The notes under the pieces were generated by a model. The model was not told where the DNA came from and ran no database searches. It saw nothing but the letters and a program-made list of their open reading frames with translations. The position numbers and the translations under genes are program-made. Positions 1-16,292 of a stretch of 64,000 bases of DNA are shown here, in pieces. Source of the DNA: Diatrype stigma (Eukaryota; Ascomycota; Sordariomycetes; Xylariales; Diatrypaceae); the NCBI GenBank assembly GCA_022225965.2, contig JAKJXP020000161.1, positions 1 to 64,000 on the forward strand, written 5' to 3'. The stretch's first letter is position 1; each line of letters starts with the position of its first letter.

Positions 1-355
1 TACGATTCCCGGGCAGATTACGTAATACAATATTTACCTAGCCCAATTCAAATAAGCAGCAAAAAGCAATTCCCTTAAAGGTCTCCGCGCGAAGCGCGGA
101 GCCGGCGTCAGCTGGTACAGACGACATTGAGGTAAAAACATATGGCTACTTATTCATTACTCATATCTCTCATTGATTTATCTGTGGTGCCCGTACATAT
201 ATGCATGGATTAATCACTTCGTCGGGTCACAGGATGCAATAACACAACCGGTAGCTCAGATAGGATTCTTCCATTCATGGCATGTATGTACATATGTATC
301 GCTTATATTCAAAAACGCAAATGGTATCTCTCGCAATTCGCTGGTGTTCCCTCCT
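1..355. other. Spacer 3' of the ferric reductase
   Basis: I see no gene here. The stretch is AT-rich 3' flank of the reductase that ends at 356 and contains one GC-rich hairpin at 83-101. Confidence 0.6.
83..101. repeat. GC-rich perfect hairpin
   Basis: Two 8-nt arms (CTCCGCGC and GCGCGGAG) flank a GAA loop. The core GCGAAGCG recurs in a second GC-rich palindrome near 5087-5094. Function is unknown; it may be an insertion scar or a short palindromic repeat. Confidence 0.6.
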
Positions 356-2332
356 TCACCACTCAAGTCTATCATCACATGTCAAGCGGACATCGAACCG
401 CTCGTTCCCCCTCCACACTTTCGATCCCGAATTGCAGGATGCCACGATGCTTCTCAAGTCGCTGATCATGCCACCAGGCCCGCTAGCATACACAACACTA
501 GGGCCCCTCACCGTGTTTTCCACGAACGTATTCACCAGCTCTTTCAGATCCGGGTGTCTATGGTAGTCCTCCCCGCCGATCTTCTGGACGTCTAGCGTCG
601 AGATTGACTGCGTGCCCTTCAAGGATGAATTCGAAGAAGACGTGGTGGCGGCTTCTTGAACGTCCGCTTCTTTCTCGATGGCCTTCTCGTCTCGGACCAG
701 TGTGGTCGTACTGGCCTGTTCCCTAGTGACGAAGATATGTATGGCTATCTGGTGAGTCTTGGCCGCACGTCGGATGACGTTGAGTTCTTTCTCTACCCAA
801 CGGATATCGTCCTTCCTCCTGACAGCCCAGAGCAGCTCTATCTTTCGATCTTTTGAAGCAGGCTTCTGTGCTAAGTCGAGGAGTACGGGGAGCACGTATG
901 TAAGACCTGTCCCACCCGCCACGCAAAGCACGTTTGTATCTGCCGTCAAGTCCTCGGAAATGGACTCGCCATAAGCGCCCTGTAAGATAACGGGTGTCGT
1001 GGCGTCCTTGGACTCTGAGAGCTTCTTAACAGCCAGCTCGGCAATCTTCTTTGTCTCTCCACCTTTGGCGCGGAATATATACGAATGTGCGACTGCCCCA
1101 TTTCGTACCTCTGGGAGGTTCAAGGGTGTGAAAGGATGTGACTGCCAGATGCTTCCTTCGGTGAAGCACAGGTAGTAATGCTGTCCAACTTTCCAGGGCT
1201 CTTGGCGATGCTCAAAGTCTAAGCGGATCACATCACCGTGTTCCGGATCAGGGAATTGAGTCAGTCGGCCAGTTGCCGCCTTGAATCCCATCCGCTCCTC
1301 GGGCAAATATTGGTGATGGATTAGTGCCGTGCGAATAAGCCTTGCCAGTCGATCCAAGAACCAGAGAAGCAGTGACGGTAGCATGAAGCATCTTAACTGT
1401 TTCCAGTGGCCCCAGCACGCGCCGATGTAAACCATGGCCAAAACATAGTGAGCCTTGCGGAAGAACTCGTACCCTGTCAGCCGGATACCCCACCGCGTGC
1501 TCAGTGCGAAAATAAGAAGCAGCAGGATTTGAGCGACGATGCCCCAAATGATGTAGAGTTGAACGACCCATTCCCTGGCGGTTTGGGGTTGAGGCTGGTA
1601 GAGCTTGACCTCAACGATGGTCCATCCAATTGTATGCATGCTTCCCTGTATCACGATAATATATCCAAGCCATCGATGGAGGAAGTTGAAACTCTGGTAG
1701 GGTACTCCGGTGAGGAGCGAAAGGAGCGATTCCCTGCTCGCTAGCATGACAGATAGTGGCGTAAGAGCGTATGCAAGGACACCAACTCGGTCGGACCACG
1801 GTCCCAGACCGGAGCGTATATTGAAAAGGTCGGGGTGTTTTTTGACAGGTGTAACCCATTTTTCGTAGACGATACCGACATGAGTCCAGATCAGAAGATA
1901 GCCAGCTAGGATAGCCAATATCAGAACTTGTAATCGCGTCGTGCGACCGAAGATCGCTCTCGCAGCATCAGGAAGCAGATAGCGACGACCATGGGCAGCC
2001 AGTGTCCGCCTCAACCGTGAAGTCCCCGAGTTAGATGTCTTGAACGCATCGCCCTCCACGATGCCGGATGTGACTAATTCAACTTGTGGTGATGGGCAGA
2101 GTCTTCTAGCGATCGACCAAGCAAACACAATCCCCACAATCGTCGCCCACAAGATGGCGCAATATATCATGCCAAGGTCATGGCCACCATAGACAGCATC
2201 CAGGTATTCGCAAGAGCCTATGTCGTTTGTACAGGGAAGGACTCGGTCTACGTAACCCCAGTGAGGCTCCATGCCCTCTGCTGTGGTCGGATCCTGGATG
2301 TGTCGAACGCTGAGATGCTTGACTGTCTCCAT
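356..2332 (-). CDS. Ferric/cupric reductase transmembrane component (FRE family)
   Basis: This is a single-exon 658-residue membrane oxidoreductase predicted to move electrons from NAD(P)H through FAD and two hemes to extracellular Fe(III) or Cu(II). The N-terminal half is hydrophobic, with helices between roughly residues 50 and 340. Two histidine pairs with equal 14-residue spacing (about H219/H233 and H295/H309) fit bis-heme ligation. The FAD motif HPFTPL lies near 399-404, a VAGGTGLT nucleotide-binding motif near 470, and the closing YASGPGGM motif near the C-terminus. Length and domain order match the family. I took the first ATG because hydrophobic sequence begins soon after it. A copper transporter is divergently transcribed about 1.1 kb away, which suggests that reduced metal is handed to it. 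Substrate preference (iron or copper) cannot be read from sequence. Confidence 0.93.
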   Translation of the reverse strand: METVKHLSVRHIQDPTTAEGMEPHWGYVDRVLPCTNDIGSCEYLDAVYGGHDLGMIYCAILWATIVGIVFAWSIARRLCPSPQVELVTSGIVEGDAFKTSNSGTSRLRRTLAAHGRRYLLPDAARAIFGRTTRLQVLILAILAGYLLIWTHVGIVYEKWVTPVKKHPDLFNIRSGLGPWSDRVGVLAYALTPLSVMLASRESLLSLLTGVPYQSFNFLHRWLGYIIVIQGSMHTIGWTIVEVKLYQPQPQTAREWVVQLYIIWGIVAQILLLLIFALSTRWGIRLTGYEFFRKAHYVLAMVYIGACWGHWKQLRCFMLPSLLLWFLDRLARLIRTALIHHQYLPEERMGFKAATGRLTQFPDPEHGDVIRLDFEHRQEPWKVGQHYYLCFTEGSIWQSHPFTPLNLPEVRNGAVAHSYIFRAKGGETKKIAELAVKKLSESKDATTPVILQGAYGESISEDLTADTNVLCVAGGTGLTYVLPVLLDLAQKPASKDRKIELLWAVRRKDDIRWVEKELNVIRRAAKTHQIAIHIFVTREQASTTTLVRDEKAIEKEADVQEAATTSSSNSSLKGTQSISTLDVQKIGGEDYHRHPDLKELVNTFVENTVRGPSVVYASGPGGMISDLRSIVASCNSGSKVWRGNERFDVRLTCDDRLEW

Positions 2333-3454
2333 CTTGCCGGCCGTGGGAAGGACCTGCCTATCCAGTCTGTAACGAGGGTCTGGTCAGAGAGGACCGACGG
2401 CTGCGTAGCCGTGAATCGGTGACGTTGGTAAGGGTTCGTTGAAGTCGGCCAGGCGTATTCGTTAATCGTCTGATATCATTATGGAATAGGGCCAGGAACT
2501 AGGTGGGAGTTGTTAGATCTTAAAGTAAAGACTGTGAAACCTGAAGATGTGTCTAGATCCCAGGACACGTATCGGCGTAGGTGCCCGCCTCTATTAAACG
2601 GTCGCACCATCCTATCACTTAGACGACCTGCCACCCGAAGAAGGTTACCACTTGTGCGCACTGCTACGTACTACCCAGCTGTGTAGGGTAATGCCAATAC
2701 GGGACAATCAATTGACGAGCTGCCTAATATCTAGGGAGATCTATCCAGCCCTAGCCGCCTCGCAAGCCGGATGCGCAAGATCGTGGGAGTGGTTCGTTTC
2801 CTGGTAGTGGAGCATGTCATGTGGAGCAAGTGAGAAGAATTGAGCACGTTTCGAGATCCACATGGGACGCTATAGCGGGCTAGGCAATACCCACACGGAC
2901 CTAGCCGCTCCATTGCTGTACGTGGAATTATAGCAAGCCGTGCTATATGTTGCTATATGGCGACGGTGAATGGCTGCACTTCGGCGAGGAACCCGATCTT
3001 ATTACGTGCAGCAACCCCACATCCTTCGAGACCCCACGACCCTTGTGCCAGCTAGTGCTACCTACATATGCGACTTGCCTCCTAGGGGATGTGATGTTAT
3101 CCCGCCAAGGCTACACTAACGAAGATAAATGCTGCGTAAAGCAAGAAGGCCTGCGAGTAGCGGCGGCGAACTACAAGGAGTCGTAAAACGATAGGCTAGG
3201 CAGAACCTCTCAAATTAGCTCATATGTAGATTGTCTTCCTGCCTTGCGATAGACACCCAAATAAAGCTCAGTTCCAGTACTTCCATTAGATATCTCTTCC
3301 ACAACTTCAACTTGTCTCTTAGTTGCGCAGCCAAATTATCTAGTCAGGACCTATTTCTTAGCTCAAGTAAATCCGCAACTCACGAACTCTGAGCTATAGC
3401 CAAGCGATTGTATACCTGGGATTACCAATCTCGAGCTTGAACGACTCGCCCACT
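2333..3454. promoter_or_regulatory. Shared upstream region of reductase and copper transporter
   Basis: This 1.1-kb divergent intergenic region must hold both promoters. I found no convincing gene, no exact Mac1-type TTTGCTC element and no strong TATA box. The plus-strand 79-codon frame at 2947-3186 has no recognisable features. Confidence 0.5.
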
Positions 3455-4139
3455 ATGGATATGAGCAGTATGGATACGGGCGACAGCGATGCCTGCAAAG
3501 TTGATGTGAGTCGCCCAGAAGCTGTCTGCTAGAAATATTGAGAACAACAATAAACTAACGGACACAGATGCTGTGGAATTGGTACACGATTGATGCTTGT
3601 ACGTCCGGGACCAACCGAGATGAGAGAAATCCCCGCATTTGGAAGCTAACAGCACGTGCCCAGGCTTTCTCACTTCATCATGGCGGATCCGAAACGAGGG
3701 CATGATGGCCGCGACCTGCATCGGCGTGATACTGATGGTCGTGCTCCTCGAGTTCCTCCGCCGGCTCGGCAAGGAGTACGACGGGCTGATCCAGCGTCAA
3801 TTTCAACGGCACATTTCCGCGCGGGTGAAAACCACCCAGTCGTTGAGCGGTGGCTGCAATGCCGACCTGCCGGCGGCGGACCCGCGAACGGTCACGTTCC
3901 GGGCGAGCCCGCTGCAGCAGATCATCCGCTCCGTCATCCACGCGGCGACGTTCGGGCTCGCGTACCTCATCATGCTGCTCGCCATGTACTTCAACGGCTA
4001 TATCATCATCTCCATCTTCATCGGCGCGGGGCTCGGGAAGTTCTTCTGCGACTGGATGGTCGTCAAGGTCTTAATAGACGGCGACCAGAACGGGAAGGAC
4101 CCCGCGGGGATTGAGGAAACGACGGTGTGCTGTGGTTGA
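3455..4139 (+). CDS. Ctr-family copper transporter
   Basis: Exons 3455-3505, 3568-3598 and 3664-4139 give a 185-residue protein. Introns 3506-3567 and 3599-3663 have GTGAGT and GTACGT donors and CTAAC-type branch points. The short Met-rich N-terminus (MDMSSMDTG) leads to the Ctr2/Ctr3-type MLWNWYTIDACF segment, then TM1. A polar loop (about 75-105) follows. TM2 carries the MxxxM copper motif (MLLAM), TM3 the GxxxG packing motif (GAGLG), and the C-terminus ends in CC. These are the diagnostic features of trimeric Cu(I) channels. The second exon is only 31 nt, so an uncorrected reading frame misses the WNWYTIDA segment. Plasma or vacuolar membrane location is undecided. The divergent neighbour is a metalloreductase that could supply Cu(I). 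Confidence 0.93.
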
Positions 4140-5230
4140 CGGAATGGGACTGCTTTTTGACGGCAAAGGCATTTAGCGACGGAGTAAGGGAGCAGCTCTC
4201 GAATTTATGGGTTTTGCGGCATTTATTTACGATCAGTGTCATTAGAACTAACTATACCAGAGTCTTTGATGTATCATGTATACTCAACCTAATATCAGCA
4301 TCAGGCCAGTTCGCCAGTCCTTAGTTGCGATGGCCCTCTGAACGAATAGCTTGGCGGATTTCATACTGCTACAAAACTTGATTCATCCTGGAATTGTAGA
4401 ATGGGCGTGTTGAGTGTACAATGGATATTATTATGATACTCCGGTGGTGTTGAAATCGACCTGTATTATCTTGATTACTACGTAGGCATATATCAAATGG
4501 CTGGGGAGGCTGCGGTAGACAGCAGACATGGAAACTATTCTGAACGACAAAGTTAAGAACATTGATATTGACCTTCACTTCAGTGCCCTCACTCTTCCTC
4601 ATTTTTTAACTCCGTTCCCTATCCGCCTTTTCTTTCATTGCCTTTTTAGCTGTATGGTTGTTGTTGGGTGGCTAGTGCCTTCGTCATCCTATCCACACCA
4701 GTATATACCTAGGTAGGCTAGCTTTCACATTTAGCTTTATAGCTGTATTTTATATATCTATATATACCAATTTTACTACTTCCTCTCCCTTATTTCCTAT
4801 AGGTGACTTATATTGTACCTGTATTAGTTGTAGATCTCCTGTAAAAGTCAAGGGCATGATAGGAAATGACGATAGATTGAGTGTATTGAATATTACCAGT
4901 CCTAGGCATTATAAAATCCTAACACGGTTAGCCAATCACAAGAACTAGAGATAGGAGTAAGGTATGCAATTAATAATAGCAATACTACTACCACCAGAAC
5001 CACTTAGGCAAAGATGCCAAGGTCTGCTGTCTCGCTACAAATTCAGGTAGTACTAGTGGTAGTAGTTATCAACGCGGGAGGCGGCTGCGAAGCGTCGCCT
5101 CAGAGCCCCCCCTTGGGGCATACGGCCATGTTAGGCTAGGATGCTATACTAATATACATAGAAGCCAATCTTATGAATCTCATCCGAAGACACATCGCCT
5201 TATAGGCGGGCCAAAGTGTATCCCCCTCAG
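4140..5230. other. Spacer between copper transporter and HMG copy A
   Basis: This is convergent 3' flank, AT-rich in its middle (TATATATC runs near 4740-4770), with a GC-rich palindrome at 5078-5101. I see no credible gene. Confidence 0.55.
5078..5101. repeat. GC-rich palindrome with GCGAAGCG core
   Basis: The arms GAGGCG and CGCCTC enclose an imperfectly paired centre that contains GCGAAGCG at 5087-5094, the core of the hairpin at 83-101. It sits just 3' of HMG copy A. Confidence 0.45.
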
Positions 5231-6746
5231 CTACAAACCCAAGTCGCCGTAAAGGGAACCCCAAGTTTGATCCCCCTCATAACTTCCCTCCTCGTCGCCT
5301 GTACCGAAAAGAGCATTGAAGTCGGCATCCGGCTGAAAGCTGAATTGATCCTGTGGATCAATAGAGGAGACGTTATTCTCTAATATGCCTACGTCGGGGT
5401 TTGGTGCTGAGTCGTTACTCCAAATGTTGTTATCTTGGATAACAGTGGCATTCTCGGAAGGATGAGGCACGTTCAAATCCTTAGCAATTGCAACTTCTCC
5501 ATGGGATGCTTGGACTTGCTTCTGGGCACGCCGAATTATCTCGGATGAATTTCGTCGTTGTGGGCGCCACTCCGGGTGCTTCAACTTGAACTCCGCTGCG
5601 ATGCGGTCCGCGCGGCCCTTCCATACCTTCTTCTCTTGCCGAGATAGAGAAGCCCACATCTTGGAAGCTATCTTTGCTGTATCACGATGTTAGTATTACC
5701 ATGTGTATGAGACTTCCTGCGTAAACAGAGAGAGAGGAGGATAAAGAAACAAAAGTCAAAAGCTATGATACTTACACACTTCCGGGGCCTTGAGCCCGGG
5801 GTTTTGCATAAGGATAGAGGGCTGAACATGCATCCGGAACAGGCACCAGCAGTTCGGGGGTTTGGGAAGACCCGACTTTGGTGGCTTCGTTCTCGACTTC
5901 CGGGTCTTCGTGCCTGCAAGCACCGTCCTGCCCTGGTCCCCTGATGTTGTGTTTGTCTGTGGAGAACCGATGGATAACTAGTCCATGCCAGGTTCCTCTT
6001 TGACAGCGTCAACTGCGTTCATGTTGAATGGGGTTGTTACTAGTCCAGGTGCTGAGGCGATGACCGGTTCGGGTTGTTGTTGAGAAACAGGTTGCGGTTC
6101 GCCAATTGGCATGGCCAAGAAGTGCAATGAAGTTCTTTCGAAGTCGAGGGCAGATCCTAGATAGATTCTGTCGGCATACGATATATCCTGGGCGTAATGG
6201 ACATCGTTGGCGAAGATTGTCTGTCTATTGGTGTGTAAGTAGAGAGATAGGAAATCATACAGTAAGCACGTCCGTAGGTCTTGGTATACAACACTCGGGG
6301 GGTCATAAGGACATGAAAAAACGATGATAAAGAGAGGGGTACATGTAGGAAGAGGTGGCGAGGGAGATAAAGGGACTGTGGACGAAAGTAAAGCTAAGAT
6401 AAGGTAGGTAGGGTTGATCAAGGAGACGTCGTAGTGCTAACTTGGGGATGGAAGTTTCCGTGAATCGTTAAGCGACATACCTCATTAACGCGAGAAGCGC
6501 GTGCTTCTGCGTGAGATCCAATCTCTGAAAGCACGTTATAGGGACACTGATAATTCGATTGAAAAGATTTACCTGGACCTTGAGGTAGTCCCAGGTCGGT
6601 GCCATCTTCGCGGCCTCTGCCTCCACATCCTTGTTCACAAAACCATGGATCTGTATTTCTCTCTCTAGACCTGGCACCATATTATCCCCCAGGTGCCCAG
6701 GCGAAGCAGAAGCATGGCTTCCAATCAGGTCATTGGGAAATTCCAT
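5231..6746 (-). CDS. MATA_HMG-box protein, MAT1-2-1-like (copy A), with in-frame TAG
   Basis: In transcript order the exons are 6481-6746, 6224-5776 and 5676-5231: 387 codons including the final stop. Exon 1 ends with the family's N-terminal motif (WDYLKVQV...FNRIISVP). Exon 2 opens with a YAQD...DRIYLGS block and runs into a basic linker (PPKSG) and the first part of the HMG box (PKPPNCWCLFR). The HMG intron splits a Ser codon (T|CA), the position used in MAT1-2-1 genes. Exon 3 completes the box (SKIASKMW...PQRRNSSEIIRRA). A tail with ALFGTG and YGDLGL motifs follows and is shared with copy E. Codon 171 (5978-5980) is TAG; the frame is open on both sides. A VKEE sumoylation-like site lies just before it. 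DNA binding and a transcription-factor role are inferred from the box. Confidence 0.82.
5978..5980 (-). other. In-frame TAG in HMG copy A
   Basis: GAC-TAG-TTA within exon 2, codon 171, lies 31 codons before PPKSG. It is at the same place as the TAG codons in B, C and D and the TTG in E. See the findings for the editing/readthrough proposal. Confidence 0.9.
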
Positions 6747-6904
6747 CTTGGTAATGGAGGTAGTTCTGAGAAGCGTAGGAGAATTGATGGGAAGGGGAAT
6801 GATGGAATGAATGGTGAAGATACGGACAGGGTAATGACGGAAGGTTGAATGATGTAAGTGTAAAGGTGGAGGAAAATTGAATGAGAAGAAGGGAGAAGTG
6901 GTGC

Positions 6905-6913
6905 CTTAAGTAG
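6905..6913 (-). promoter_or_regulatory. CTTAAGTAG box upstream of copy A
   Basis: The plus-strand nonamer CTTAAGTAG lies about 160 bp upstream of the copy A ATG, followed by a T-run. The same nonamer is found about 200 bp upstream of copies C and D. It may be a promoter element kept by duplication, or simple sequence inheritance. Confidence 0.4.
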
Positions 6914-7802
6914 TTTTTCCAGTTGTGGTCTGCCCAGTAACTGATGGAGGTACCAACAACGTGCATTGGGCATGTGCCGAGAAGTATTACCTTCTAAACC
7001 TGGCAGGCTTGGTTATTCACTTTACCTACTACCGAAGGAGTTTTCCATATCGATTAAATAAAGTGGTTGGCCCCGAGCCGAGCAAGGCAGCTGACCTTCG
7101 CACAGTATGGCATGCCTATGAATGTATACAGTAACTTTGTGCTTTGGCCAACTACGTGAATATAACATCGTATTCGGTTTGCACAGTGCGTTGGACGTCG
7201 TGTATTTATAGTATTCGGGTGAAAGAAGTTCGACTTATGACTGTGATCCTATACAGTATCAATCCATGTACAATATCTTGGATGGTATTGCTTACCGAGC
7301 TGGTCACGCCTTAAGATGTACGTTGAACAAATACTATCGTTGGCCTTCTCGATCCTCAGTTTCAAACAAATTAGTTTGCCTGAAATTTTCAAGTAAGCTT
7401 CCAGGTGCTACTTTACCACCGTGATATCTGAAAATTTTGGCCTTACGCATCATATTTCATCACGAGTGGCAAGTTCCGATCTGTATCACCGTAGCTGCAC
7501 CAGGGACAAATGAGTATCATTCATCAAGGCTAGATAGGTCTGCTGAAGTAGCATATCTTAAATGGAAACTTTATACTTCTGGCACGCTTTTCAGAATGTA
7601 ATTGTGTTGCGTGGCTAGTGCCCTAGTGGCACTACCCACACCTAAGCAACCGCCTTCTAGCACTCCACCTGCTTAGATTCCTTTGAATCTACATCATCAG
7701 TTTCTTTCCTGCAGCTGCTTTCTGCTTTGCACCTGCAATAAATTGTGAGCTGGTACACACATAATGATTGGCAGCAGGGTGTAATTGGGAACGCCTGGGA
7801 GG

Positions 7803-7862
7803 CATAGCACCACTTGGACGTTATCAATCATGATAAAAGATAAGAGAGGAGATTTATTCAGC
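7803..7862. repeat. Duplicated 3'-flank block (copy 1)
   Basis: This block of about 60 bp begins CATAGCACCACTTGGACG and includes TTATCAATCATGATAA. It matches 9742-9801 with scattered substitutions. Both copies lie 3' of an HMG gene (B and C), consistent with a duplication unit that included the downstream flank. Confidence 0.7.
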
Positions 7863-8019
7863 GATTGTGTGGACTGTCCTAGAATACACTCAAGAGAAGT
7901 AGCGATAGGTACATAGTGGATGAATACAGATGTACGAAGTTATGAACCTAGGGCAAATTCGTACGTTCCATGAAACCCTATGTCATCCGCATGGTAACGC
8001 GAAGATAGTACATCACCAG

Positions 8020-9444
8020 CTACTGCTTCCCCTTCTTCGCCCGCTTCTGAATCTCTGAAGGCTTGCGGGGACTGTAGACATAATCTGGGTACATCAGACG
8101 ATGTCGCTCTTTCTCCGCCCTTTGACGTTGTCGCCAGGGCTCCTTCTGAGCTCCTGAATACCCCTTCCAAATCTTCCTAGCGGAAGAGACTACAGGGCCT
8201 GGTTAGTATGATCTTACGTTGAAACCTAGTAGTAGTACAGTACTCACTGACATCCTGTGCCTTCATGCCAGGATTCTGCTTCAGGATCTCGACCCTGATA
8301 TGCTGGAGAAAGATTATCCAGCTATTTCGCGGCCGGCGAATGCCGTTCTTGGGTTCCTTTGACCTGCTGGCTTTTACGTGACCAGACACCTGCTTGGGTT
8401 GCTCGCTTCCTCCGTTATTATCCGCCCCAGTCGAGGACACAGGCACCTAATCCATGTTCTGTTCGTAGGGGACATCACGCTCTTGGATCTTTGCCAAGCC
8501 ATTGGGCAGCTTTTGATCAGAGAACTTCTGCTCGGAAAGTATAATCTCGGGTAACTTCAACTCGGGCTCTTCGATCGAGATGGCTTTAAAGGCCGTCGGT
8601 AGAGTAATGAAGTGTGAGCCAGAACCCAGGTAGATTCGGTCAGGTAAGGTCAAGTCTTCGGTATAGATGAGGTCGCCCTTTCCAGTGGTGTACCTAATAA
8701 CATATATGTAAGGACCAAACAGTTAAGACAAAACAAGAAAATCCGCTAGGCTGGTACATATTATTCGATTTTACATTTGCAGAATCGTACAACAGCGTAA
8801 CATATCTGATCGGATGAAAACAAAATTTGAATGTAAATTGAGTTTGGGAATACTTACTGCATAAGTAAAAGTATCGTCTTCTTGTCCTCGACAGTCCAGT
8901 CTCGGAAGCAAGTAGCAGGGATGGAGATGATCTTGTTGAACGGGCTGATTTGGACTTTCAATTCATCCCAAACGCTCGAAACCTTGTGGTTTGGTCTGAT
9001 CGGCTGGAGAGGACCAAGGTTGGGCGATTGAATAGGTGGCATCGTAGCATTGCCACCATTGCCGTGATCAACTCCCCAGTAATCAGGTACCGGAGTATTG
9101 CCATTCAATGACAACATAGCATTGCCATCATCGCTGTAATCAGCGCCAAGGTTGAAGGATTGGGTGGATGGCGCAGTAACATTGCCATCATTGCCGTTAT
9201 CAACTCCCCAGTAATCTGGAGTTGCGGTGCTGCCATTCGATGGCATCGTAGACTCAATTCCCCAGTAGTCTGGAGTTGTGGTGCTGCCATTCGATTGGGT
9301 CGTAGAATCAATTCCCCAGTAGTCTGGAGTTGTGGTGCTGCCATTCGATTGGGTCGTAGAATCAATTCCCCAGTAGTCTGGAGTTGTGGTGCTGCCATCC
9401 GATGGGATCGTAGAATCAACTCCCCAGTAATCCATCTTGCACAT
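8020..9444 (-). CDS. MATA_HMG-box protein, MAT1-2-1-like (copy B), with in-frame TAG and N-terminal repeats
   Basis: Exons in transcript order are 9444-8858, 8693-8248 and 8189-8020: 401 codons including the final stop. The N-terminus is expanded by 18-residue repeats of the type PDYWGIDSTTQSNGSTTT (about residues 4-80). The shared block then follows (WDELKVQISPFNKIISIP...RDWTVEDKK). Exon 2 carries DRIYLGS, the TAG at 8447-8449 (codon 278), then EPKNG and the divergent box start RRPRNSWIIFLQH. The HMG intron is phase 1 but yields Ile (A|TC), not Ser. Exon 3 supplies SSARKIWKGYS and PRKPSEIQKRAKK and ends directly after the basic stretch, without the tail seen in A and E. ATG at 9435, three codons in, is an equally possible start. 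Confidence 0.8.
8447..8449 (-). other. In-frame TAG in HMG copy B
   Basis: GAT-TAG-GTG in exon 2, codon 278, is 30 codons before EPKNG. From the exon 2 start to the TAG there are 244 nt, identical to copy A. Confidence 0.9.
9202..9417. repeat. 54-bp coding minisatellite in copy B exon 1
   Basis: Four 54-bp units start at 9202, 9256, 9310 and 9364, with a partial fifth from 9418. They keep the reading frame and encode DYWG-centred 18-residue repeats. The two middle units are nearly identical, suggesting recent expansion. Single DYWG motifs occur in copy C, so the unit probably arose from an ancestral N-terminal motif. Confidence 0.9.
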
Positions 9445-9451
9445 AGAGATG

Positions 9452-9640
9452 GAGATGAAAGTAAAGAATCAATGTATTTGGATTGGTTCTTGGGATGGAG
9501 GTGAGTTGATGGTGGAGATGGAAGTAAAGAATCAATGTACTTGAATTGGTTCTTGGTACGGAGGTGAATTGATGGTAGAGATGAAAGTAAAGAATCAATG
9601 TACTTGGATTGGTTCTTGGGATGGAGGTGAATCGATGGTG
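9452..9640. repeat. 63-bp minisatellite, three copies, in the copy B leader
   Basis: Tandem units 9452-9514, 9515-9577 and 9578-9640 share the core GTAAAGAATCAATGTA followed by TTGGTTCTTGG. They sit immediately upstream of the copy B start, probably in the 5' UTR or core promoter. A single diverged copy precedes copy C near 11420-11460. Confidence 0.9.
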
Positions 9641-9741
9641 GAATTGATAATAGAACTGTTGGGGGAGTGTTGGTTGAAGGTTGGATGGAAGTAGTACTAC
9701 CGATTGATGGAAGTATTGCAATTGGTGGGCGGTGCTTAGAG

Positions 9742-9801
9742 CCATATCACCACCTGGACGTTATCAGCCATGATAATAGATAAGAAAAGAATTCATTCAG
9801 C
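9742..9801. repeat. Duplicated 3'-flank block (copy 2)
   Basis: This is the partner of 7803-7862, sharing CACCACTTGGACG / CACCACCTGGACG and the following TTATCA..CATGATAA segment. It lies 3' of copy C. Confidence 0.7.
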
Positions 9802-10137
9802 ACCTGTCGAAAATATATACAGGCACAAAGTACGGCTATAGATAGTAGGTTTATGAAGCATTAATACCTACATACAAAGTGATGAACCTATGAAAACTGT
9901 ACACCCCATAAGGCCATATACCGCCTGAATCTTAACGCGAAGACTTCCAACTCTCTCAACAGCATTGGTGACGGTGCTTTCATGTGACCAGTTGGTACCA
10001 TCAACGGCCTATTTGTTTCCAGCCGTGACTCATTTTCTTGGTGTTGCCAAGCTCTCAGCCCGTAGCCTCCGCCAGATTCTCCAAGTTACTCTCAATATGA
10101 TCGAGGACAGAGTCCGTATACATACAGCCGGATATAT

Positions 10138-11409
10138 TCACTGCTTCTTAGCCCGTCTCTTGATCTCCGATGGCTTACGGGGATTGTATACATAGTCCGG
10201 GTTTCTGATTTTATGCAACCACGCCTCCCGCTTTGCCATCTCCTTGAATGGGTACTTCTGCTGCTCCGAATATCCCTTCCAAATCTTTCTGGCGAGCGCA
10301 ACTATGGAGTATGATTAGTGTAATGATACGACAGAGCATGGCGAATTCAGTACTTACTAACGTCCTGGGCCTTCATTCCGGGATGGTCTTCCAGAATCTC
10401 CACTCGGATGTGTCGGAGAAAAAGCATCCAGCAGTTGAGCGGTCGAGTGACACCACTCTTGGGTGCCTTGGTTCTGGGGGCCTTTTGGCCACCGTTCACT
10501 TTCGTGGGTGGCTTTTTCTCCTTGCCATTCGCCTGAGTAGAGGGTATAGGTTCCTAACCCGTTACCTCGTTTTCGTTGGCGAAAGGCTGGTGGGTAATGA
10601 AATTGTTGGCTCTCTCGGCATGGGTGTTACCCATATGGGGGGCCATCTCATTCCGCGGCTCTAAGCCGCTTCTGGGCTCACGGTGGTGCTCTTGATACAT
10701 GTTCATATTGCCTTCGTGAGAAAAGTCGAGCTCAGGAGCGTGGTGCAGACTGTTAGGAAGCTTTAGGTCTGACAGCTTCTCTCCGGGAATTGCATCAGTC
10801 GGAATGATGACAAAAGCTACTGATAGATTCTGGAAGTCCGTGAATGAACCGAGGTAAACTCGGTCAGGGAATCCCATGTCATGAGCATAAGTAACGTTGT
10901 CCTTGCCGGTGGTTTGCCTAGCAAAGTATGAGTAAGGGCCAAATAATCCCCATGTTAAAAGGAATAGACACATAGCCTTAGGTAATAGATATTATCCGAT
11001 AGCTTATGTAACAGGATAGCAACTTTGATTGGGCGAGATTGAAAGATGGTTTGAAGGCACAATAACGTGGGGTTCGAAAGTGAACGAGGCGTGGAGTTCA
11101 GAATACTCACTTCATCAGGGATTGGACAATTTTCTTATCCTCAGCAGTCCAATGTTGGTACTGATTGGCAGGAATAGAGATGATACTGTTAAACTGGCTA
11201 ACCTGCACCCTAAGATCATCCCAAGTGGTGAGGATATTGTTCGTCTTGGCGGGCTGGAAGTCGCCAAGATCGAATGACTGTTCAGAGGACATTGTAACAT
11301 TGTCATCCGTCTTGGTTGGCTGGAAAGCATCAAAGATGAATGATTGATCAGAGGATATGGTAGTGTTGTCCTCATCACCGTAGTCAACAACTCCCCAATA
11401 GTCAGGCAT
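10138..11409 (-). CDS. MATA_HMG-box protein, MAT1-2-1-like (copy C), with in-frame TAG
   Basis: Exons in transcript order are 11409-11111, 10917-10358 and 10301-10138: 341 codons including the final stop. The N-terminus has one DYWG motif, then WDDLRVQVSQFNSIISIP and HWTAEDKK. Exon 2 encodes the YAHD...DRVYLGS block and a His/Asn/Glu-rich insert of about 40 residues, longer than in A or B. The TAG at 10554-10556 is codon 221. Then come APKSG and RPLNCWMLFLRH. The HMG intron is phase 1 (A|TT, Ile). Exon 3 gives ALARKIWKGYS and PRKPSEIKRRAKKQ and stops, so this copy is short-tailed like B and D. I chose the ATG at 11409 because the longer upstream frame starts in sequence resembling the leaders of the other copies. 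Confidence 0.82.
10554..10556 (-). other. In-frame TAG in HMG copy C
   Basis: GGT-TAG-GAA in exon 2, codon 221, is 29 codons before APKSG. The flanking bases ACGGGTTAGGA are nearly the same as in copy D. Confidence 0.9.
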
Positions 11410-11606
11410 CCTTAGAATAGAGATGGGGATGAAGGTTAAGAACCAATACGTTTGTATGGACTGTCGAATTGATGAGATTTGGGTCAATTGACGGCACGAT
11501 TCAGGATGCAATTGATGGGTGCAATTGATGGATGAAATTGACGGATGAAGTTGATGAAAAGAAAAGGTTGGGAGAAGGGTTGAAGTCGTGAAAGCTGGAC
11601 GCGGTG

Positions 11607-11615
11607 CTTAAGTAG
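11607..11615 (-). promoter_or_regulatory. CTTAAGTAG box upstream of copy C
   Basis: Same plus-strand nonamer as upstream of A and D, about 200 bp before the copy C ATG. Confidence 0.4.
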
Positions 11616-12503
11616 AAAATTCCTCAGTGCTGGTACCGAAATTAATACTGGGTGAAGAGGGCCAAAGCTTATTAGTACCTTGCAGTTGAAGATAAGGATC
11701 ATTTCCTTGATTTATGTTTCCCAGGTGCCCAGTAGCCAGGTAGGGTACAGATCGGTAGAGTCATATGACCCCGGGAGCAGGTCACTGTGGTGATGGGTTG
11801 TGAGTCTTACCTATTGTCTGATAAGCGGTGTTGATAGACATCTGCGAATCTATCTGCATTCAATACCTAGTGAAGCCATGTGTCTACTGGCCGGTATGAA
11901 AGTACACGGTACTATGAAAACATTATGTCTATACATTTTACCTTATATGAAGCTGATTCATCTCCCGCCTCTTCAATCGCAGCCCTACATCAAATTTATT
12001 TCTAAGATGTGTATTGAAGATACATGAACGTACCTTTCTATCGTGAACTGCATCATAATTGGTAGTCCTATACCGGATTATATAGCAACTCTTCACGAGC
12101 ATTTAAAAGAATGAAGGTTGCTACATACTACGTATTCACTGTGATCTCCAATGTTCACAAGCAGCAAGCCTTAAGCAGCAACACTACATACATGGAGCAA
12201 CATCGGTGGTACATATCAATGGCAAATTATGTTCGATAAGAACCTGTTTCTTATCCCGTGAAAAGTTCGAACGCAAGACACATTTTTTTAGATGGTGATT
12301 GTAGATTGACGTAGATGTATGCTAATAGACATGATATTTACCACCGATGTGATATTGGATTGCTTTAGGGACATCACCACCATAACTTCGTCGGCGACAG
12401 TGTCACATATATATACAAACTCTCCCATGTTTGGTTTGCACTGAACCTATCACAAACGCATCACAGTCTTGTATTCCTATCCTCTATCGCGAGATAGGGG
12501 CGG

Positions 12504-12558
12504 CTAGATAGGGGAGCTGGATTACCTAAGGTGATCGACATCTAGTGGCTTGGCACAC
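12504..12558. repeat. Dispersed direct repeat (copy 1)
   Basis: Starts CTAGATAGGGGAG, then GGATTAC and CTAGTGGCTTGGC. A similar, slightly longer block lies at 16923-16990. Together the two blocks bracket copies D and E. Confidence 0.5.
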
Positions 12559-12829
12559 ATTGTACAGACCTCTTCCGCCCCGAAGACAAGATCAATCCTA
12601 TCCCTTCTGTATGATATTGGGTATCTTTCCGAATCACGTTGCATTTGATTATCTGAAAGCGAACTCTTCATTCTCCGATATCTGCTATGAACACTACTTA
12701 GGTAGGTAGATAATAGCTACCCCAATCTCAAGCTACACCCAGAGTCTACTAGAGTGGAATGTATGTCCCACGACTACATGTAAGCTACATAACAGCAGTA
12801 CCAAAGGATGAGTTCTGCCAGTATCCCCG

Positions 12830-13937
12830 TTAGTTCTTGGATCGTCGCTTGATCTCAGAGGGACGACGCGGCTGGTATTTGTAGGTCGGATTGTCCCGCT
12901 TGTGTTGCTCTGCGAGGCGCTTCGCCTCGGCCTTCCAGGGGGCCTTCTCAGCCGCGGATAGGGCTTTCCAGATTCGGGAGACAATGCGGGCTGTAGAGCG
13001 TGGTCAGTGTCGTTGTGCAGCAAATCAAGAATTCATGTACTCACAAACTTGTTTGGTCAGCAGAGTGGGATTCTCTCTTAGAACCTCAACACGCTTGTGT
13101 GCGAGGAACAGCAGCCAGCAATTCTTCGGTCTGGTGATGCCCGATTTTGGCGCCTTTGACCTCTTAGTCTTCGGTTTGGTGACGCCCGATTTTGGCGCCT
13201 TTGACTTCTTAGTCTTCGCTCCCTTGGAGGCTGGTTGCGGCTTTGGGATCTCGCCAATAGCTTCTTCCTTGATCGGAGGCACGGGATCCTAACCCGTAGC
13301 ACCTCCTTGATCGAGGATTGGATAATCAACAGGCTCAACAGCCGTGATAGTGTTCAATTGCCCGGCCATATCTCCACCCATCCAATCGTTGTCGGGAAGC
13401 GCATTGTCAAAAAACATAGGTTCTGGCAACATTGGCTGCGGATACATCGGTTGAACGTCGTCAATTGGGATGATTACCATCGATGCCGATGTCTTCTCGA
13501 AGTCTGAACGAGATCCAAGATAATAGCGGTCTAGTAGGGTAACATCTTGAGCGTAAAATACGTCCTTTTTGCCGATTTCCCTGATAATTAATAAGTAAGT
13601 GGTGGAGATATGAAGTTTCAACTGGATGATGGAACAATGAAAATAGCCCAGGGTACAGAAGAATGTGAGATAGGGATTGTAGGGTTCGGGAATCTTCTTA
13701 CATCATGAACGATTGTATCATCTGCTTGTCCAGAATGCTCCATCCGTGAAACACGGTAGCTGGGATGGTGATGATTTGGTTGAATTGGCTCAATTGGACC
13801 TTCAAAGAGTCCCAATTCGCCCAGTGTCTGTCCATACCGTTGGAAGGCTGGACATAATCCTGACCAAAAAGCTGTCCAGACGGCATAGAGATTCCATTAC
13901 CAGCAGCATAGTCAATTACTCCATTAAAGAGATCCAT
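12830..13937 (-). CDS. MATA_HMG-box protein, MAT1-2-1-like (copy D), with in-frame TAG
   Basis: Exons in transcript order are 13937-13702, 13580-13045 and 12990-12830: 311 codons including the final stop. Exon 1 contains WDSLKVQLSQFNQIITIP and GWSILDKQ. Exon 2 has YAQD...DRYYLGS, a Met/Pro-rich stretch, and TAG at 13289-13291 (codon 176). An IKEE sumoylation-like site follows, then a duplicated basic linker (APKSGVT..APKSGIT) and RPKNCWLLFLAHKR. The HMG intron splits a Ser codon (T|CC) as in A and E and in MAT1-2-1. Exon 3 encodes SRIVSRIWKALSAAEK and YQPRRPSEIKRRSKN, the most canonical box end of the array. There is no C-terminal tail. It is divergent to copy E, with about 940 bp between the start codons. 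Confidence 0.83.
13133..13222. repeat. 45-bp in-frame tandem duplication in copy D
   Basis: Units 13133-13177 and 13178-13222 duplicate the APKSG-(I/V)T-(R/K)PK linker just before the HMG box, adding 15 residues without changing frame. Confidence 0.85.
13289..13291 (-). other. In-frame TAG in HMG copy D
   Basis: GGT-TAG-GAT in exon 2, codon 176, is 30 codons before the first APKSG. Confidence 0.9.
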
Positions 13938-14875: not shown

Positions 14876-16292
14876 ATGGACTTTACGAACGAGTTTGCCG
14901 ACCATACCATGAGCATCATGGCTACTTCATCTCCGCAGTTCCTCGATGCTGGCGCTATTAATTCAGCCCAAACCTGGAACCATCTAAAAATCCAGCTAAC
15001 ACCCTTCAACCGGATTATCAGTATCCCAATCAAGACGTTTCGGAATTGGACAGTTGAAGAGAAATTCAACTTCATCTTTCTTATGAAGTACGTTCTTACA
15101 TATATTTACCTTGCTTGCTTCATGTTGAATGGAACAAGGTAGTCCGACAGCCTTTCCACGTCCTTATTCTCAAATCTTCAAGTACCAGCACATTCCACAT
15201 TTGATCTATCCATGTAGTCTGTCTACGTATCACTGTCTATATATCCATTTTCTCTTCTACCTTCTACAATCACGTCTATTAATAATTGCATACCCTCATA
15301 CCTTACCAATGGTTAGTTTAATATTTTTACTTACGCGTTATTATTAGGCAAACTATTCACTTAGATGATGTCCAATACTCCATGGACGCGGCGTTTCCTG
15401 ATAGGGTCTACCTAGGCTCAGTCTTTGACTTCCAGCAGACATCAGCAAACCTAACGACCATCCCAATTGGCAATGCCTTGCCATACAACGCTCAGGTCGC
15501 CAGCAGCTCGTCTACTCCCAAGCTAACAGCCATTCCGGCCGGTAGAGCTCCGACCCATTACGCACACAACCCCAATATGGATTTGGCATCCATTAATTCT
15601 ATCAATACGAATGGCCTGCTCAAGTCTGATAATAACAATACGAACAAGACTAAGAGACCGAGATCAAAGGCCCCGAAATCGGGAATTACACGACCACCGA
15701 ACTGCTGGATGCTCTTTCGTAAGCATTGGGATGGTCCTGTATCTAAGGCTCATCCGGGGATGAAAACCCCACAAATCTGTAAGCACATTGCCCTTGAATC
15801 CTTGCGGTGGGATGGTATTAACCTCCATTCACAGCGAAGATAATTGCTAAGATGTGGCATGCTCTACCTCAACATCATAAGCAGGTCTGGAAAGACCGTG
15901 CGCAGCAGTTGAAGGCAGAGCACAAGCTGCTATATCCCAACTACGAGTACCAACCGCGTCGTCCGAGCGAGATAAAACGACGAGCCAAGACAATCGCCAA
16001 ACAGGAACTTGGTGACATTCCCAGCATCCCCGAAGAGGTTGCCATTCCTCACAATGCGGCTGTTCCCAACAATACTACTCGTTTGGGAAACATTCTGGAG
16101 TTCGACCTCAACATGGGCTCGGAGTTTCCATCCAATGCTCAATACCACAACGATTTCGGTGACAGACCCCATGGAGACTTTTCAGGCCTCTTTGGAGCTG
16201 GGCATATAAAGCAGGAAAGCCCCGCTGAAGACCTTTATGGCCTTGCGGACGACCTTGGCCTTATCGATATTTCTACGAAAGGATGGGCCTGA
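14876..16292 (+). CDS. MATA_HMG-box protein, MAT1-2-1-like (copy E), uninterrupted
   Basis: Exons 14876-15087, 15348-15778 and 15835-16292 give 366 residues with no internal stop. The N-terminus has WNHLKIQLTPFNRIISIP and NWTVEEK. Exon 2 has YSMD...DRVYLGS, then TTG (15583-15585, codon 150) at the place where A-D have TAG, then APKSG and RPPNCWMLFRKH. The phase-1 HMG intron splits a Ser codon (T|CG). Exon 3 encodes SKIIAKMWHALPQHHKQ and YQPRRPSEIKRRAK. An acidic tail with GLFGAG and ADDLGL follows, matching copy A; it also has an IKQE sumoylation-like site. It is the only copy on the plus strand and the only one that can be translated without recoding, so it may be the constitutively functional or ancestral member. 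An in-frame ATG upstream at 14714 exists, but the 14876 start aligns with the family. Confidence 0.9.

Follow-up and report, generated by a model that had tools for sequence, protein, structure and literature searches.

In-frame TAG codons within covarying predicted hairpins point to probable premature-stop mRNA editing in a family of HMG-box genes of Diatrype stigma

The stretch of DNA analysed here, referred to as the window, comprises the first 64,000 nucleotides (nt) of contig JAKJXP020000161.1 of Diatrype stigma, a sordariomycete, and carries five related HMG-box genes, A to D on the minus strand (5231-13937) and E on the plus strand (14876-16292), each with three exons in our inferred models. 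Genes A to D have a single in-frame TAG in exon 2, between a YLGS motif and the HMG box, and across the genome a TAG recurs at this site in 12 of 14 scorable paralogs on five contigs. It is very probable that these 12 HMG-box genes are functional and need adenosine-to-inosine (A-to-I) editing of the mRNA to yield their full-length products. The preliminary description of the window had proposed such editing, turning UAG into UGG in a sordariomycete, and the proposal is supported by a predicted hairpin at the site, by paired changes in its stem, by the presence in this genome of the editing machinery and of a further candidate target, and by evidence disfavouring introns.

With the genes read as spliced models, the one internal TAG reported for each of A to D and its absence from E were borne out at every position (Table 1). 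The distance of 29-31 codons given for the stretch between the TAG and the (A/P/E)PK(S/N)G motif was likewise confirmed, being 31, 30, 29 and 30 codons in A to D when measured to the first occurrence of the motif (gene D carries it twice). All seven family proteins scanned, i.e., A-E, H and I with the stop entered as X, match PF00505, with a best E-value of 1.7e-17; gene A scores 56 bits against a curated cut-off of 25.4, and exon pieces of B, C, D and E also exceed the cut-off. The NCBI annotation treats the site in several ways. SLS62_010980 (P0013), which is gene A, is 170 amino acids long and terminates exactly at the TAG; SLS62_010982 (P0004), which is gene C, bypasses the TAG by way of a 33-nt "intron"; and the model of gene I (P0012) takes the TAG as a splice acceptor. 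The annotation of A, C and I bears the usual signs of a premature-stop site. SLS62_010984 (P0001), which is gene E, has Leu at the site, as does P0002, a 63%-identical partial relative. Compared by eye, our models agree with those of NCBI for A (intron 1), C and I and disagree for intron 2 of E.

To survey the family, the exon 2 sequences of E, M, H and I were used as genome queries, which located further copies on four other contigs; the resulting counts are lower bounds, only the best candidates being scored. The TAG is present in A, B, C, D, G, H, I, K, L, M, N and O, and neither TAA nor TGA was found at the site in any of the 14 scorable copies. The chance of 12 TAGs at equal odds for the three stops is about 2e-6, a figure that applies to related and hence non-independent copies. 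The two scorable exceptions are J (contig C19), with TAT (Tyr), and E, with the Leu codons CTG-CTC when aligned by eye. Complete gene models cover A-E, H and I, and the remaining TAG copies (G and K-O) are represented by exons 2 and 3 only. Unscorable were F (C55, L028 ~2560-3200), which is without the N-terminal part, and relics on C50 (L032) and at 198 kb of C61 (L072). Weak genome matches at C12:295801 and on C59, as well as a sequence on C38, were left out of the count, and HMG-box matches at C12:587034 and on C33, C1, C132, C28 and C30 stand outside it. Intron 2 of copy N (C34, L031) contains a stretch of G followed by unknown bases and a stretch of C, probably an assembly gap.

In 11 of the 12 copies the TAG adenosine falls within the loop of a predicted hairpin, compared with 31 of 112 control TAGs (Fisher p 2e-5), the controls being the other sense-strand TAGs of the same gene regions; in copy K, for instance, CGAA pairs with UUCG around the TAG. 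When 96 pairing registers were scored over the 12 copies, the best four all shared one axis, with 41, 40, 35 and 35 of 48 pairs, compared with a mean of 18.8 and a maximum of 33 for the 88 off-axis registers (the best of which is register 8/11). The second-best register, with 40 of 48 pairs, is the one that places the TAG adenosine third in a 7-nt loop, and at least three of the four inner register pairs form in 11 of 12 copies compared with 14 of 112 controls. In the 61-nt windows of K, L, N and G, a predicted outer helix extends past the inner stem.

The two sides of this helix also change in concert. In a set of 11 copies, with O left out, the covariation score was 0.433, a value that 0 of 500 shuffles reached (0.207), and slid registers gave at most 0.211. 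In the same set, paired cells made up 74.5% compared with 60.9% in shuffles (0 of 500 as high), and cells changed on both sides numbered 9 compared with 3.8 (1 of 500). RNAalifold, given 61-nt windows of 11 copies, recovered the same helix unaided, plus one inner pair. A further control, in which codons of the 12 copies were swapped for synonyms over 1000 rounds, gave a mean of 5.9 hairpins among 12 copies compared with the real 11 (2 of 1000 rounds as high) and 33.1 register pairs compared with the real 40 (2 of 1000), and the folding energy stood at a z of -5.53 (0 of 1000). Windows displaced by -120, -90, -60 and +60 nt had energy z values of -0.49, +0.39, -0.84 and -0.64, respectively. The bases around the adenosine were compared with the preference for edited sites in Fusarium graminearum, which the available portion of PMC9600606 gives as C/U at -2, G at +2, A/G at +3 and A/G at +4. 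The TAG copies match at -2 (12 of 12), +2 (9 of 12) and +4 (11 of 12); U at -1 and G at +1 are dictated by the TAG codon itself.

The genome of D. stigma also appears equipped for editing of this kind. In Sordariomycetes, sexual-stage A-to-I editing is tied to Tad2-Tad3 and Ame1, and it has been linked to the Ame1 residues MV, in place of which Leotiomycetes have KN (as set out in excerpts of PMC11087585). The D. stigma Ame1 ortholog, the DUF726 protein SLS62_004227, has MV at this position, which was located by motif, as do the Neurospora and Sordaria relatives shown alongside. Among the best 120 of 1577 relatives, D. stigma included, the pair is MV in 67, KN in three, another pair in two and not resolved in one, and the other 47 are without the GYSLG anchor. 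The three KN proteins belong to Rutstroemia and Clarireedia, which we take to be Leotiomycetes. The tRNA-Val(AAC) of D. stigma has an anticodon arm with A third in a 7-nt loop, after U.

A putative second target is a PUK1-like kinase (G000:C5:144190-144471, L058), so assigned on its kinase type and its TAG-TGG feature, which stands where three solved kinases show CDWWSLG; PMC4817773, in the part consulted, reports the same situation for NCU03242, the ortholog of PUK1 in N. crassa. Among 137 kinase matches, 14 with stops were read, and most of these stops fell at one end of the match or in sequence resembling an intron. The PUK1-like TAG and one stop on C140 lay inside a contiguous kinase domain. 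The latter (C140:83504-83827, L059) is a lone TAG, YTI*DCLRHPWM, with its adenosine base-paired when folded in silico. RID was tried as a second positive control and rejected, as six of the seven matches of a DNA methyltransferase (PF00145) search were stop-free and the weakest had one TAG and one TAA.

We regard it as very improbable that a cryptic or alternative intron excises the TAG or that the TAG is itself the 3' splice site. TAG acceptors are indeed present in nine of the 16 introns that served as the yardstick, these being introns of eight family genes inferred from frame and consensus, and the NCBI models of genes I (P0012) and C (P0004) treat the site in just these two ways. False introns across editing sites are, however, a known annotation artefact (PMC4817773 and PMC11169179, in the parts available). 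Among possible donors 30-200 nt upstream, none in the 12 copies reaches the weakest of the yardstick introns (7.21), which is a strict measure because those 16 donors were partly selected by consensus; the best are GTGAGC in C (5.4, with the frame lost) and GTCAGT in K and L (4.99). The branch-point sequence CTRAC is found within 42 nt upstream in none of the 12 copies compared with seven of the 16 introns, and the looser pattern YTVAY occurs upstream in four (A, D, K and L) compared with 15 of 16. In no copy is there a candidate intron of 40-160 nt that would keep the frame; reading stays open to either side of the TAG, and the pairing spans it. The preliminary description was right that no shared GT-AG pair removes the TAG and roughly right in putting the nearest pairs at 26-36 nt; in 10 copies the shortest in-frame GT-AG pairs around the TAG measure between 9 and 75 nt, and H and O have none.

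Programmed readthrough, by which a near-cognate tRNA would decode UAG in part of the passages to yield both a short and a long product with the hairpin assisting, predicts a lone UAG with an open frame beyond just as editing does. RNA structure close to a stop can promote readthrough. This reading is nevertheless very unlikely, given that the three bases after the TAG vary between copies, that the paired structure encloses the stop itself, a hairpin that readthrough does not predict, and that UAA and UGA are never found at the site. Nor is TAG generally reassigned, since A, B, H and I use it as their terminal stop. A CUA anticodon was not found among the tRNA genes listed for 20 of the 44 tRNA matches, and a suppressor tRNA may lie elsewhere; nine of these 20 matches gave no gene in one run, and one, L084, was called as tRNA-Stop(TTA) without introns and as tRNA-Lys(TTT) with introns allowed.

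It is very improbable that the genes are decaying pseudogenes or that the short product is the functional one. The family does decay, J being frameshifted and two related loci being relics, and gene A is annotated as the 170-amino-acid product. Against this stand the single stop of a single kind in 12 diverged copies, the HMG box that stays open beyond it and the PF00505 matches of all seven proteins scanned. As regards purifying selection after the TAG, a check named in the preliminary description, the proportion of nonsynonymous differences is lower than that of synonymous differences (pN < pS) downstream of the site in all nine chosen pairs; the ratio of the corresponding rates (dN/dS) is 0.26-0.79 in the five pairs with finite dS, and dS is saturated in the other four. 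Upstream of the site, the B-C pair has dN > dS. Exon 3 of J (C19, L029 ~7300-7345) has an in-frame TAG at an HMG-box Trp position (EKEY*KNLA compared with EKKVWKGRA), where the 14 other copies read have Trp (10) or Phe/Tyr (4). J is also frameshifted in exon 2, and it may be decaying.

If editing is the correct explanation, the hairpin loop would present the UAG in much the way that a tRNA anticodon arm presents A34 (U33-A34). With the Tad2-Tad3-Ame1 complex active, which in related fungi is mainly the case during sexual development, the adenosine would be deaminated, the edited UAG would be decoded as UGG (Trp) and the HMG box would be translated. With the complex inactive, translation would stop ahead of the HMG box, and the unedited mRNA may be degraded, possibly by nonsense-mediated decay, since the modelled genes have an intron further downstream. 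We infer A-to-I editing at these sites, and with it the timing of editing, its use as a switch and Trp as the useful residue.

Several observations weigh against this explanation. The TAG adenosine of copy B is paired in the predicted fold, the sole miss among the 12; a 7-nt loop with A third appears only in the folds of A and D, the other nine loops having 3-9 nt; and the top register (41 of 48) has an extra inner pair and a 5-nt loop. Two of the five pair measures are not above shuffles, of which 237 of 500 were as high for pairs with both sides changed and 236 of 500 for further pair types. Energy z is low at +90 nt (-2.49) and +120 nt (-3.8) as well, so the excess is not unique and the energy test alone is not TAG-specific; the register and covariation tests are specific to the TAG. 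Copy J retains a hairpin at the site despite the absence of the TAG, the preferred A/G at +3 is present in only four of 12 copies, and the hairpin predicted at the PUK1-like TAG is no more than weak. TGG was found at the site in no copy, the exceptions being Leu and Tyr, and Trp was found there in none of P0001, P0002, P0004, P0012 and P0013, the family members read at the site among those returned by protein searches with E and with seven proteins. Finally, automatic protein alignments do not bring the TAGs of all copies into one column, because the linker is too variable. The "one homologous codon" of the preliminary description thus stands in that a single TAG lies between two conserved blocks with similar flanking nucleotides, which argues for homology of the site, and falls short in that a common alignment column is missing.

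Exon 2 is weakly conserved, with a mean column identity of 31% among 12 copies, and the linker around the TAG is fast-evolving. In a maximum-likelihood tree, in which Penicillium proteins served as outgroup only, the end branches measure 0.31-1.7 changes per column, i.e., the 12 TAG paralogs are strongly diverged. The TAG is present in every multi-copy subclade, at least two changes of state are needed, and seven of the 15 inner branches are open. This pattern fits a TAG that would have been ancestral and was later lost in E and J. We therefore lean, with some reserve, towards an editing-gated stop as the ancestral, inherited switch of the whole paralogous HMG-box family, a UAG-hairpin cassette that would have outlasted the protein sequence around it and would allow a single deaminase complex to activate much of the family jointly, in the manner of a developmental checkpoint. 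This is tempered by the 7-nt loop being the second-best register and present in two of 12 folds, and by the TAGs lacking a common alignment column.

Table 1. Coordinates of the HMG-box genes, their TAG codons and the pairing stretches around them, with the TAG copies outside the window.
Feature	Position	Strand	Remarks
Gene A, HMG-box	exons 6746-6481, 6224-5776, 5676-5231	minus	one in-frame TAG, exon 2; spliced model
TAG of gene A	5978-5980	minus	proposed edited adenosine 5979
Hairpin of A, AUGGA-CUAGUUA-UCCAU	5970-5986	minus	5-bp stem, 7-nt loop, A third
Gene B	exons 9435-8858, 8693-8248, 8189-8020	minus	one in-frame TAG, exon 2
TAG of gene B	8447-8449	minus	
Pairing stretch of B	8439-8455	minus	4 of 5 register pairs, two G-U; absent from minimum-energy fold
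Gene C	exons 11409-11111, 10917-10358, 10301-10138	minus	one in-frame TAG, exon 2
TAG of gene C	10554-10556	minus	
Pairing stretch of C	10546-10562	minus	4 of 5 register pairs, one G-U; predicted loop 3 nt
Gene D	exons 13937-13702, 13580-13045, 12990-12830	minus	one in-frame TAG, exon 2
TAG of gene D	13289-13291	minus	
Hairpin of D, ACGGG-UUAGGAU-CCCGU	13281-13297	minus	5-bp stem, 7-nt loop, A third
Gene E	exons 14876-15087, 15348-15778, 15835-16292	plus	no internal stops; site hairpin not found
Copies outside the window with TAG	G, H on C55; I, O on C19; K, L, M on C61; N on C34		

Outside the HMG-box genes, a Pfam scan of 20 of the 147 open reading frames (ORFs) listed for the window matched, within 1-5000 and 16300-64000, ferric reductase, Ctr copper transporter, YTP1, WSC, BAG, chalcone isomerase-like, FTA2, subtilase and GH95 domains; no MAT-locus marker (APN2, SLA2) was found among these 20. 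Among named proteins from other organisms, the closest are high-mobility-group proteins of Penicillium, and with the markers missing from the scanned ORFs the label "mating-type-like" used in the preliminary description holds up weakly. A short motif, DYWG, forms repeats in B (exon 1, 8858-9435) and in L and occurs singly in C (N-terminal) and I (C-terminal). In gene D (~13060-13210), a segment with APKSG ahead of the HMG box is duplicated.

What is new here is one putative editing site common to a diverged paralogous family. We found no report of a paralogous family with a common premature-stop-correction (PSC) site, or of HMG-box genes with one, in the open-licence PMC literature, and restorative-editing literature outside it could hold an HMG-box case; nor did we find there a report of PSC editing in Diatrypaceae, to which the case for such editing would extend. 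Because the stop and the hairpin recur in 12 strongly diverged paralogs, selection for editability would be readable from DNA alone. The 12 copies would supply natural test substrates, and the pattern suggests that editing could act on a group of regulators at once.

The family invites comparison with several known systems. It shares the HMG box (PF00505) with the mating-type HMG-box proteins (MAT1-2-1, MAT1-1-3 and the PaHMG8 group) but is multicopy and, in the ORFs scanned, without a MAT-locus marker beside it. With the A34 anticodon arm, the tRNA substrate of Tad2-Tad3, the tested register shares an adenosine after U, third in a 7-nt loop; in contrast, the D. stigma sites lie in mRNA, their stems are short and variable, and several folds close extra pairs to give smaller loops. 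A hairpin-loop preference and a likeness to A34 sites have been described for fungal mRNA editing in the published work, as far as the excerpts extend, and a term look-up in the available part of the cis-element paper found neither loop size nor the position of A in the loop. The register found here lends support to the view that mRNA editing in fungi relies on a shape resembling the tRNA substrate of the same enzyme.

Premature-stop editing is already known, including in a transcription factor, CHE1 (PMC11169179, in part). The PSC-edited genes of Fusarium graminearum and Neurospora (PUK1, AMD1, FgRID, FgAMA1 and FgBUD14) resemble the present family in their UAG within an open frame, their hairpin-loop preference, their sordariomycete hosts and the false introns of their automated annotation (excerpts of PMC4817773 and PMC11156358). 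Those sites, as far as the excerpts describe them, belong to single genes and their orthologs and their editing has been measured, whereas D. stigma offers 12 paralogs with hairpin covariation, known from DNA alone. The nearest parallel in gene type is CHE1 of Fusarium, a C2H2 zinc-finger gene, which likewise is transcription-factor-like, has a conserved in-frame TAG in a predicted hairpin loop, encodes its DNA-binding part after the stop and has attracted the same annotation errors. CHE1 is, in the available part of that account (PMC11169179), one gene conserved across related species and edited in hyphae, whereas the D. stigma sites are spread over a multigene HMG-box family within one genome.

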